Source of the DNA: Prochlorococcus sp. AG-409-J16
Lineage (GTDB): Bacteria > Cyanobacteriota > Cyanobacteriia > PCC-6307 > Cyanobiaceae
Length of the DNA stretch: 64,000 nt
Direction: 5' to 3'
NCBI GenBank assembly: GCA_003215655.1
Contig: QCKB01000002.1
Location: 1-64,000, forward strand
Position 1 is the stretch's first letter. Every line of letters begins with the position of its first letter. Shown piece by piece: positions 3,232 through 32,743 of the stretch. A program made the position numbers and the translations under genes. Below the pieces are notes generated by a model. It saw only the letters and a list, made by a program, of their open reading frames with translations, had not been told where the DNA came from and ran no database searches.

Positions 3232-4599
3232 TCAACGCGTAGCTAATAATGCCTCAATAAATTCGAAACTATTAAATGGTCGCAAATCCCTAATCCCTTC
3301 ACCCGCTCCAATAAAGCGAATAGGTAATCCAGCTTCCTTAGAGACAGCTAACGCTACTCCTCCTCGAGAGGTTCCATCTAACTTAGTGATTACTACACCA
3401 GTTAATTTGGCCGATTTTGCAAATGCCATTGCCTGCTTCAAGCCATTTTGCCCTTGACTAGCGTCTAAAACTAATAAAGATTCGACTTCTGCTTCTGGTG
3501 CTAAGCGATCAATAATTTTACGAACTTTTTGAAGCTCTTCCATCAAATTATGTTTTGTTTGTAGCCTTCCAGCTGTATCAACTAAAACCAAATCTAGTCC
3601 TTTAGATTTTGCTGCTCCAATAGCATCAAAAACAACAGCCGCTGGGTCAGCATTAATTGATGTGTTTGCTATAACTTGAACACCACTTCTTTCACCCCAA
3701 ACCTGAACTTGCTTAACAGCACCAGCCCTAAATGTGTCTGCAGCAGCTATTAAAGCAGAATAACCACTTCGAATAGCAAGATTTGCTAATTTTCCTAATG
3801 TTGTTGTTTTTCCTACTCCATTTACCCCAACTAAAAGCCAAACATTCAACTTACCTTTTTTAGGACTCAATAATTTAACTCCACTTTTCTGAATTGGAGC
3901 ATCAATCAATTTCAACAACTGTTTTTTTAAAAAATCAATCCCTTCTTTTGAATCAATAACTTCTTCATTTAAACGACGACGAAGAGCATCTAAAACTTCT
4001 TCTGTTGCTTCTACACCTGCATCAGCACGTAATAATAATGATTCTAAAGTATCAAAATCTTCTTGAGTTAAGGGATCATCGCCAAATTTCTCCAATAAGC
4101 CAGTAACAAAGCCTCGACGAGTCTGTTCGAGCCCAGAACGTAATCGGCCCAACCAATCTATTTCTTCAAGGGAAACATCCTCAGAACGAACACCCTGTGC
4201 CGCTAAAACTTCAGCAGACCATGTAAACGCTTCATCAAATTGACCTAAACTAGGCTCTGATTCTTGAATCTCTATAGAATCTGAAATTTCGACATCATTT
4301 GGATTTAATAATTGACTTGAATATTTATCTTGCTCTAAAACAACTAATTCTTCTTTCTGAATATTTTCAGAAAACTTTTTTTCTTCTAATATCTTTTCAG
4401 TTCTCTTCTCGTCTTCCTGTCTCTTTTCTTGTTGCTCCTTAAGTCGCTGAAAAGTCTTACGCGCCCACTCAATTGACTCATCTTCTAAAGAAAGATCTTC
4501 GGAAGATTTTATATTTTCTTGTTCTTTACTAGATAGATCTTCCTCTCGATCTTTTGATTCGGAACTAATTCTTTTACGGTTCAATTCGTCGTAAACCAT
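3232..4599 (-). CDS. ftsY: Signal recognition particle receptor FtsY
   Basis: FtsY is the membrane-associated GTPase that docks ribosome-SRP complexes at the translocon. The last 300 residues form the NG domain: P-loop GVNGVGKTTTLGKLA (from about residue 258), AADTFRAGA, the G3 motif DTAGR, and TKLDGTSRGG near the end. The first 140 residues are a very charged Glu/Lys-rich A-type extension with likely coiled or disordered character, as in many bacterial FtsY proteins. The total is 455 residues. ATG at 4599 is preferred over a TTG at 4620 because it begins two bases after the nusB stop, which fits translational coupling in the nusB-ftsY pair. Confidence 0.96.
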   Translation of the reverse strand: MVYDELNRKRISSESKDREEDLSSKEQENIKSSEDLSLEDESIEWARKTFQRLKEQQEKRQEDEKRTEKILEEKKFSENIQKEELVVLEQDKYSSQLLNPNDVEISDSIEIQESEPSLGQFDEAFTWSAEVLAAQGVRSEDVSLEEIDWLGRLRSGLEQTRRGFVTGLLEKFGDDPLTQEDFDTLESLLLRADAGVEATEEVLDALRRRLNEEVIDSKEGIDFLKKQLLKLIDAPIQKSGVKLLSPKKGKLNVWLLVGVNGVGKTTTLGKLANLAIRSGYSALIAAADTFRAGAVKQVQVWGERSGVQVIANTSINADPAAVVFDAIGAAKSKGLDLVLVDTAGRLQTKHNLMEELQKVRKIIDRLAPEAEVESLLVLDASQGQNGLKQAMAFAKSAKLTGVVITKLDGTSRGGVALAVSKEAGLPIRFIGAGEGIRDLRPFNSFEFIEALLATR

Positions 4600-31006: not shown

Positions 31007-31044
31007 ATGCTTTGATTCCAATAAGCATTTTTAATTTTAGCTTT

Positions 31045-31080
31045 AAAAAGCCGGGCCCTTGTAGACGAGCCCGGCTTTTT
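31045..31080. terminator. Strong bidirectional intrinsic terminator
   Basis: AAAAAGCCGGGC (31045-31056) and GCCCGGCTTTTT (31069-31080) form a perfect 12-bp inverted repeat with a 12-nt loop, G+C-rich at the loop side and with A and T runs at the base, so it can terminate in both directions. Rightward it would end the small membrane protein transcript; leftward it would stop anything entering from the argG side. Confidence 0.88.
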
Positions 31081-31096
31081 ATTGAATTTGAAGCTG

Positions 31097-31283
31097 CTGA
31101 GAGTGGCGCCTGGGGCCAAGGATTCAGGTGTTTGGCTTAATCTCCTTTGAGGGCACCTAAACGATGCAGAGGAGTTACGACTGGTTTGACTTACCTAAAA
31201 TGTCGCACCAGACGTTTAGCCCACTTTTATTTAAAGAATGTTGGAGCAGGGGCCTGAATCAGCTTGCTTCTATGAATTCTCAG
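31097..31283. ncRNA. Candidate structured RNA (187-nt rod of nested stems), strand uncertain
   Basis: Five sets of complementary segments nest in register. CTGAGA (31097-31102) pairs with TCTCAG (31278-31283). CAAGGATTCAGG (31117-31128) pairs with CCTGAATC plus CTTG (31253-31260 and 31263-31266), with a 2-nt bulge. GGG (31151-31153) pairs with CCC (31220-31222). CTAAACG (31157-31163) pairs with CGTTTAG (31213-31219). CTGGT (31181-31185) pairs with ACCAG (31207-31211). The overall long rod with internal loops and a length near 187 nt resembles 6S RNA in shape, but I cannot assign it. It may equally be part of an argG leader. No computed folding or covariation was done. Confidence 0.45.
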
Positions 31284-31487
31284 GTGGCGTGTCGTCCATA
31301 GACGCCTCCAAGTTCGATGTATTTAGCATGTCTCTACTTTGGACATAGTGCAATCAGTTTTTACACGCATTGCGTTTGCTCAAGGATTAGTCCATAGTAA
31401 GAATGGCGTGCTTTTAAGTGGTTTGAGTTCTTAATTGCTGCCGCTTTATTCATAGGTTGAAGCTATTGGCTTCTCTTCTCAGGTCTT

Positions 31488-31514
31488 TTAGGTTTGAGGG
31501 AAACCTAATTTTTT
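31488..31514 (+). terminator. Terminator-like hairpin in the argG leader (possible attenuator)
   Basis: TTAGGTTT (31488-31495) and AAACCTAA (31501-31508) form a perfect 8-bp stem with a GAGGG loop, followed at once by six T (31509-31514). The hairpin ends only 17 bp before the argG ATG and just before its ribosome-binding site CAGGAG (31518-31523). A terminator in this place implies either control of argG by premature termination or the end of an upstream RNA. The segment 31486-31493 is also exactly complementary to 31193-31200 (ACCTAAAA), a possible competing pairing. Confidence 0.55.
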
Positions 31515-31531
31515 AATCAGGAGTCCATCAG

Positions 31532-32743
31532 ATGGGGCGTGCCAAGAAAGTTGTTCTTGCGTATTCCGGTGGTGTAGATACAAGTGTTTGTATTCCTTAT
31601 CTTGCTAAGGAATGGGGAGTGCAAGAGATAATTACTTTTGCAGCTGATCTTGGTCAAGGTGATGAGCTTGAACCAATTAGGAAGAAGGCTTTACAAGCTG
31701 GAGCGAGTCAGTCTTTGGTTGGCAATTTAGTTGAACCATTTATTAATGAGTTTGCCTTCCCTAGTATTAGAGCGAATGCTCTTTATCAAGGACGATATCC
31801 TTTATCAACTGCTCTAGCGAGACCTTTAATTGCTCGAGAGTTGGTCAAGATTGCGCGTGAAGTAGGGGCAGATGGAGTCGCTCATGGTTGTACTGGAAAA
31901 GGGAATGATCAGATTCGTTTTGATGTTGCGATTGCTTCTCTTGCTCCAGATTTAAAGGTATTGACTCCAGCTCGTGAATGGGGCATGAGTAGAGAGGAAA
32001 CCATTGCATATGGCGAACGTTATGGGATGCCTGCTCCAGTAAGCAAGAAATCTCCCTATTCAATTGATTTAAATTTGTTGGGTCGAAGTATTGAGGCTGG
32101 CTCTCTCGAAGACCCTATGATTCCTCCCCCAGAAGAGGTATTTGCCATGACTTCTTCTATTGAGAATGCTCCCTCAGAGGGTCAGGAGATAGAGATTGCC
32201 TTTGAAGAAGGTAAACCTGTTGCAATTAATGGTAGGTCTTTGGACCCTGTGAAGTTGATTCAAACTGCTAATGAGTTAGCTGGAAAGCATGGGTTTGGTC
32301 GTTTAGACATCATTGAGGATCGAGTTGTTGGTATTAAAAGTCGAGAGATATATGAGACACCTGGTCTTTCATTGTTGATCCTTGCTCATCAGGAATTGGA
32401 GAGTTTGACTTTATCTGCGGATGTTTTACGGACTAAGTTTCAATTAGAGAGGCAGTGGTCAGATTTGGTTTATCAGGGATTTTGGTTTGGCCCTTTGAAA
32501 AATGCTATTGATGGCTTTATAGATCGTACGCAGGTACACGTTAATGGACTTGTCAAATTAAAGTTGCAAAAAGGAAATGCAAAAATTATTGGTCGAAGTT
32601 CTAGCAACAACAGTTTATATATACCTAATATGGCTACTTATGGTAAAGATGATAAGTTTGAACATAAGTCAGCAGAAGGATTTATTTATATTTGGGGCTT
32701 GCCAAATAGGTTATGGGCTTCTATCACTAATAATAAAATTTAA
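31532..32743 (+). CDS. argG: Argininosuccinate synthase
   Basis: ArgG condenses citrulline and aspartate with ATP, the step before ArgH. The N-terminal PP-loop [13 protein letters not shown] is canonical, followed by [12 protein letters not shown] and [17 protein letters not shown], both substrate-binding stretches of the family. The length is 403 residues. ATG 31532 has a good Shine-Dalgarno (CAGGAG). The gene stands alone with an unusually long structured upstream region that ends in a terminator-like hairpin, so its expression may be set in the leader. Confidence 0.98.

Follow-up and report, generated by a model that had tools for sequence, protein, structure and literature searches.

We analyzed a window of 64,000 nucleotides from Prochlorococcus sp. 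AG-409-J16 (contig QCKB01000002.1, positions 1 to 64,000), focusing on the region that precedes argG, which is encoded on the plus strand (31532-32743). Our analysis indicates that the minus strand of this region almost certainly carries an RNA gene of the Yfr103 type, with its own promoter and terminator, running divergently from argG. The gene would extend from a 5' end at about 31318 to a 3' end near 31045 (~274-279 nt; both ends by inference), and any regulatory link between it and argG would be hypothetical. On the minus strand, an imperfect palindrome (GCAATGCGTGTAAAAACTGATTGC; 31350-31373), a candidate transcription factor site, spans positions -55 to -32 relative to the inferred start. 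It is followed by the position of the -10 element (31325-31330), placed only by alignment to that start, where CATGCT is a weak match to the family tendency xAnnnT. Next come a Shine-Dalgarno (SD) sequence GGAGG (31305-31309) and a tiny ORF encoding MDDTPPENS from ATG to TAG (31270-31299; in RNA sense, GGAGGCGTCT ATG GAC GAC ACG CCA CCT GAG AAT TCA TAG), recognized by frame retention, codon periodicity, and stop codon use. The remainder is a folded domain identified by covariation (31090-31270), closed by helix P1 (31266-31270/31090-31094) and including P1b, P1c (31247-31254/31105-31112), and P5 (31202-31211/31181-31190). A bidirectional intrinsic terminator (31045-31080) ends the RNA on the minus strand, with a hairpin of -22.0 kcal/mol and a T-run, and ends the upstream gene on the plus strand. 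Finally, on the plus strand before argG there is a perfect 8-bp hairpin (31488-31508; -7.7 kcal/mol) followed by TTTTTT, to position 31514, which is real and not conserved.

The orientation of the RNA was deduced from three kinds of evidence. First, when the supported helices are read in the plus sense, A.C mismatches occupy 125 cells and G.U pairs 37, and an A.C mismatch in this sense is a G.U pair on the minus strand. Second, strong terminators were found on the minus-strand side in the window and in 10 of the 15 other copies tested. Third, with the start set 9 nt before GGAGG, the palindrome fell at -55 to -32 in 65 of the 82 copies that had the pattern (179 examined), while the downstream control stretch of the same copies gave a single match. 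Together, mismatch types, minus-strand terminators, and palindrome position indicate that transcription of the RNA proceeds from about 31318 to 31045 and leads away from argG. Folding energy did not distinguish the two strands (z = -1.74 and -2.21).

The fold of this RNA is conserved. When 33 diverse sequences were aligned in RNA sense, pairing was seen in 90.4% of cells and double changes in 15 of 22 pairs. These amount to 53 double-change cells; shuffles gave 15.0 +/- 3.5 such cells, and sliding the partners gave no more than 24. Covariation was also found with the plus-sense version of the alignment. Three motifs, CUGCUCCAAC, AGGUGCCC, and GCCCCAG, do not vary among the 33 sequences, which is not independent evidence, since these sequences were chosen by patterns requiring most of the same motifs. 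A hairpin at 31282-31309, in which the SD would pair with CCNCC, had poor covariation support. It should be noted that raw column covariation is inflated by relatedness, and only P1 and P5 were taken from the raw scan. RNAalifold added little when applied to the full set of diverse sequences, whose loops do not align correctly from one clade to another.

The original prediction had read the same region as a candidate argG leader, possibly with a sensor-plus-terminator switch, or else as a new RNA gene plus attenuator. Much of what it described is present: the ~450 bp between the upstream terminator and the argG start, the nested complementary segments (31090-31099/31260-31270, 31105-31112/31247-31254, and 31181-31190/31202-31211), which are backed by covariation in relatives, and the hairpin with its T6 run, one of only two sites of this type on the plus strand of the window. 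None of 1000 shuffles of 31320-31531 contained even a 7-bp version of this hairpin. The proposed switch fared less well. The exact 8-nt complementarity between 31486-31493 and 31193-31200 exists, but its meaning is unsupported, as similar complementarity arose in 142 of 2000 shuffles (7%); 31193-31200 sits inside a variable loop. In a search of 40 genomes with 31040-31540, conservation ended at 31417 (query position 378) and the only match beyond it was the window itself, so that the last 115 nt before argG, which bear the hairpin, lie outside the conserved block. The element adjoins argG in nine genomes, including that of the window, and by inspection the 150 nt before argG in the eight argG-linked relatives hold no comparable hairpin. 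The distance from the left edge of the element to the argG start is ~880-1080 bp in six of these eight relatives (450 bp here), four have a minus-strand ORF of 74-184 codons between element and argG, and argG is missing from the neighborhood of more than 20 further copies. Strand, conservation limit, unconserved hairpin, intervening ORFs, and copies elsewhere thus leave the argG leader without support, although a weak argG attenuator private to the lineage of the window may exist. The guess of an RNA gene was right as such, but the gene lies on the opposite strand, points away from argG, and belongs to a family already described as Yfr103.

According to PMC5069720, which cites Voigt et al. (2014), no other RNA regarded as non-coding is as abundant in ocean picocyanobacteria as Yfr103. 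Synechococcus CC9605 is reported there to have seven paralogs, 290-328 nt in length, that make up 55.2% of its mdRNA-Seq reads. The same study describes an imperfect palindrome spanning -58 to -29 relative to the start and a distribution in marine Synechococcus and low-light Prochlorococcus (e.g., RCC307, WH7803, and SS120); it presents the RNA as non-coding and terms its function enigmatic (PMC5069720). The center of the palindrome that we found coincides with that of the published element. Exactly seven loci were detected in a 2,510,659-bp genome that we take to be Synechococcus CC9605 (a separate model count at 1e-6 gave eight matches), and copies were present in WH7803, RCC307, and a 1,751,080-bp genome, presumably SS120. 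In copies with a convincing terminator, the start-to-terminator estimates span 279-337 nt, with 279 for the window and 334-337 for two CC9605 copies, compared with the published 290-328. The seven loci, the matching taxa, the size class, and the palindrome centered as published identify the RNA of the window as Yfr103-type with near certainty, as judged against the published description. Both are also multicopy, with a strong conserved fold; in contrast to the RNA as published, which is described as non-coding and listed for a narrower range, the family described here possesses an ORF and extends to freshwater members and to diverged copies in high-light strains. CLID 9, an untested cluster from a 2005 screen whose members come from SS120 (one), MIT9313 (one), and WH8102 (four) and share no conserved position (PMC1242208), may be the same family.

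Other identities were considered and rejected. No Rfam family matched at the copy loci. 6S RNA (Yfr7, RF00013) resembles the element in abundance, size class, and long closing stem, but RF00013 has no match at the element, and the 6S RNA of the genome of the window lies elsewhere (C1:160847-161032, 81 bits); tmRNA and every other Rfam family were likewise without a match. A phage or plasmid element was discarded, as there was no match in phage or plasmid records and a single one among viral contigs. This match lies at 4368-4486 of IMGVR_UViG_3300035003_000005, a contig catalogued as viral that could be host DNA. Finally, a leader of a common downstream gene was discarded, given that copies outside the argG group share no neighbor.

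The search with 31040-31540 found related DNA in 20 of the 40 genomes, all from one family (Cyanobiaceae by content), and three exact motifs are kept in all 35 copies first found by similarity. Among named genomes, a pattern built from these motifs is present in Cyanobium, Vulcanococcus, Synechococcus (WH7803 and RCC307), Prochlorococcus, and Aphanocapsa feldmannii. At least one copy occurs in 188 of 200 near-complete genomes of the family, with 1-10 copies each, and the RNA is absent from the seven genomes tested of one genus. Across 145 genomes of the class, clear matches were confined to family members; one weak match outside (21.7 bits) is probably due to chance. Model R1 was built in the plus sense, i.e., antisense to the RNA, and still detects homologs by sequence. 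With it, a diverged full-length copy was found in high-light Prochlorococcus (MED4 979886-980094; 44-57 bits across strains), whose ORF reads MIDSLPEISE (MIDSLPAISE in MED4). This copy occurs in every high-light Prochlorococcus tested but one, and PMC2518516 does not list it with the ncRNAs of MED4. In low-light strains, helix P5 contains a hairpin loop (ACAAGGATCAATGATTTAGG in RNA sense), which in the high-light copies follows the core. The genome of the window has a second Yfr103 copy (C5:129452-129738) with a degraded helix P1 and an intact ORF, MIDTPPEH, and another genome (G089) has three tandem copies in 450-bp steps (C1:2267978-2269130). One copy is on a contig labelled Rubripirellula (JAAXJB010000045.1), probably through a binning error.

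An SD, a start codon, and a short ORF are present in 179 of 189 distinct copies, mostly as M-x(1-2)-D-T-P-P-E and mostly with 7-14 codons. The start codons are ATG, TTG, and GTG (149, 27, and 3), and the stop codons of distinct ORFs are TGA, TAG, and TAA (108, 22, and 15). To examine the reading frame, an anchor GAY-NNN-CCN was placed in 145 distinct regions without start or stop information. A start codon soon after the SD was in frame with this anchor in 141 regions, compared with 0 and 9 for the alternative frames, and an in-frame stop followed within 11 codons in 137. In 144 of the 145 regions, GAY lies either 6 or 9 nt from the start, whereas its distance from the SD takes all values modulo 3 (89/35/21). 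Third positions of the D-T-P-P codons vary in 13, 50, 27, and 32% of cases, against 0-13% for first and second positions (seven of the eight below 8%). The peptide is not invariant, as variant copies read DGPTE or DSLPE. Based on frame retention, start and stop usage, and third-position variation, the ORF is very probably under coding selection; this conclusion and the assignment to a Yfr103-type RNA on the minus strand are, taken jointly, ones that we hold with good confidence. The published non-coding label of Yfr103, which played no part in finding the family, would not fit an RNA with a 7-14-codon ORF under such selection. The open literature that we searched makes no mention of an ORF, and its presence in Yfr103-type RNA is apparently new to that literature.

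The same ORF was found in other short RNAs. Using a DNA pattern consisting only of SD, start, and D-[T/S]-P-P-E, with its reversed version as a control, we obtained exactly three sites in MED4 (339961-339994, 358713-358746, and 657488-657521), which lie inside Yfr8, Yfr11, and Yfr16, on the strand of each RNA. Matches to the pattern were obtained in 16 of 22 genomes of the family and, at a single site in each case, in 2 of 21 outgroup genomes; the control matched none. All three RNAs are classed as ncRNAs, a class defined by the absence of an ORF, and their 5' ends were verified by RACE (PMC2518516, Table 1). These ends lie 8-9 nt before the same GGAGG, so that each RNA begins, as in the Yfr103 type, with the SD and an ORF of the general form MIDSPPE... 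(MIDSPPEI, MIDSPPENLMRLV, and MIDSPPEKFIRLV). Model R1 gives weak matches at the three 5' ends. The bodies of the three RNAs are unlike Yfr103, and Yfr11 and Yfr16 have visible terminators of their own. Yfr11, and to a lesser extent Yfr16, is down in the light and up with DCMU (PMC2518516). In Synechococcus-type genomes there are also short RNAs that have an SD and a DTPPE or DGPTE ORF and lack the Yfr103 domain. The feature common to the whole set of RNAs is the promoter-SD-ORF part and not the fold.

Most likely, these transcripts serve as mini-mRNAs, or as dual-function RNAs, and encode a micropeptide that is presumably translated. Transcription would start ~9 nt before GGAGG, and the RNA would continue through the 7-14-codon ORF and, in Yfr103, the conserved folded 3' domain to the terminator. 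We see about an even chance that Yfr103 and the three MED4 ncRNAs are mini-mRNAs of a single micropeptide family, M-x(1-2)-D-[T/S]-P-P-E..., of 7-14 residues, and, within that same balanced estimate, that the micropeptide, produced in very large quantities and carried by nearly all Cyanobiaceae, is a regulator with a connection to light or redox state. Since the promoter-SD-ORF part is all that Yfr103, Yfr8, Yfr11, and Yfr16 have in common, the D-[T/S]-P-P-E micropeptide may equally be, at evenly balanced probability, their main shared function. Strong transcription of the mini-mRNAs would then supply the regulator, and the structured 3' domain added in Yfr103 could stabilize the transcript or give it a second function at the RNA level.

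SgrS/SgrT and RNAIII are examples of dual-function RNAs, a kind of RNA also cited in PMC2518516, and combine a short ORF and a conserved RNA structure on one transcript. A selected ORF on a structured RNA is likewise what we found here, although the ORF is much shorter, at 7-14 codons, and several of its carriers lack the RNA domain.

The next most likely reading, which we nevertheless consider unlikely, is a translation sensor, in which ribosome pausing on the PPE codons, EF-P activity, or ribosome supply would determine how the RNA folds, how stable it is, or how active it is, with the peptide as a by-product. Two prolines followed by glutamate are a known slow motif in translation, and both ORF and fold are conserved. 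The ranking of this reading rests on the ORF ending at helix P1: in the window the stop codon abuts P1, and in the 13-14-codon versions GAAGC of P1 is coding, such that the C-terminal codons overlap the helix. However, the DGPTE and DSLPE variants lack the two prolines, which argues against a strict requirement for them, and the ORF is retained in Yfr11 and Yfr16, both of which lack the Yfr103 domain.

A non-coding regulator as published, i.e., a structured trans-acting or protein-binding RNA, is improbable. It would accord with the invariant C-rich motifs (CUGCUCCAAC, AGGUGCCC, and GCCCCAG) and with the very high abundance reported for Yfr103 (PMC5069720), and the ORF-like conservation would then reflect a hairpin sequestering the SD. 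GGAGG can indeed pair with CCNCC in the window, and conservation of CCNCC could be owed in part to this pairing, but frame, start, and stop are left unexplained by it, as are the start-to-GAY distances that differ by 3 nt, the use of alternative start codons, the three types of in-frame stop, and the variation at the third position in the T codon. Lastly, an argG leader with a terminator switch is hardly credible: a hairpin that is rare in shuffles does stand 17 bp before argG, and the element does neighbor argG in nine genomes, but the conserved RNA is transcribed from the opposite strand, its conserved block stops short of a hairpin that has no counterpart in the eight relatives, several of these have an ORF in between, and most copies are far from argG.

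If the mini-mRNA reading holds, the hunt for the role of Yfr103 would shift from RNA targets to the peptide and its translation, and one hypothesis would span Yfr103, Yfr8, Yfr11, and Yfr16. Other abundant "ncRNAs" may also conceal tiny ORFs.
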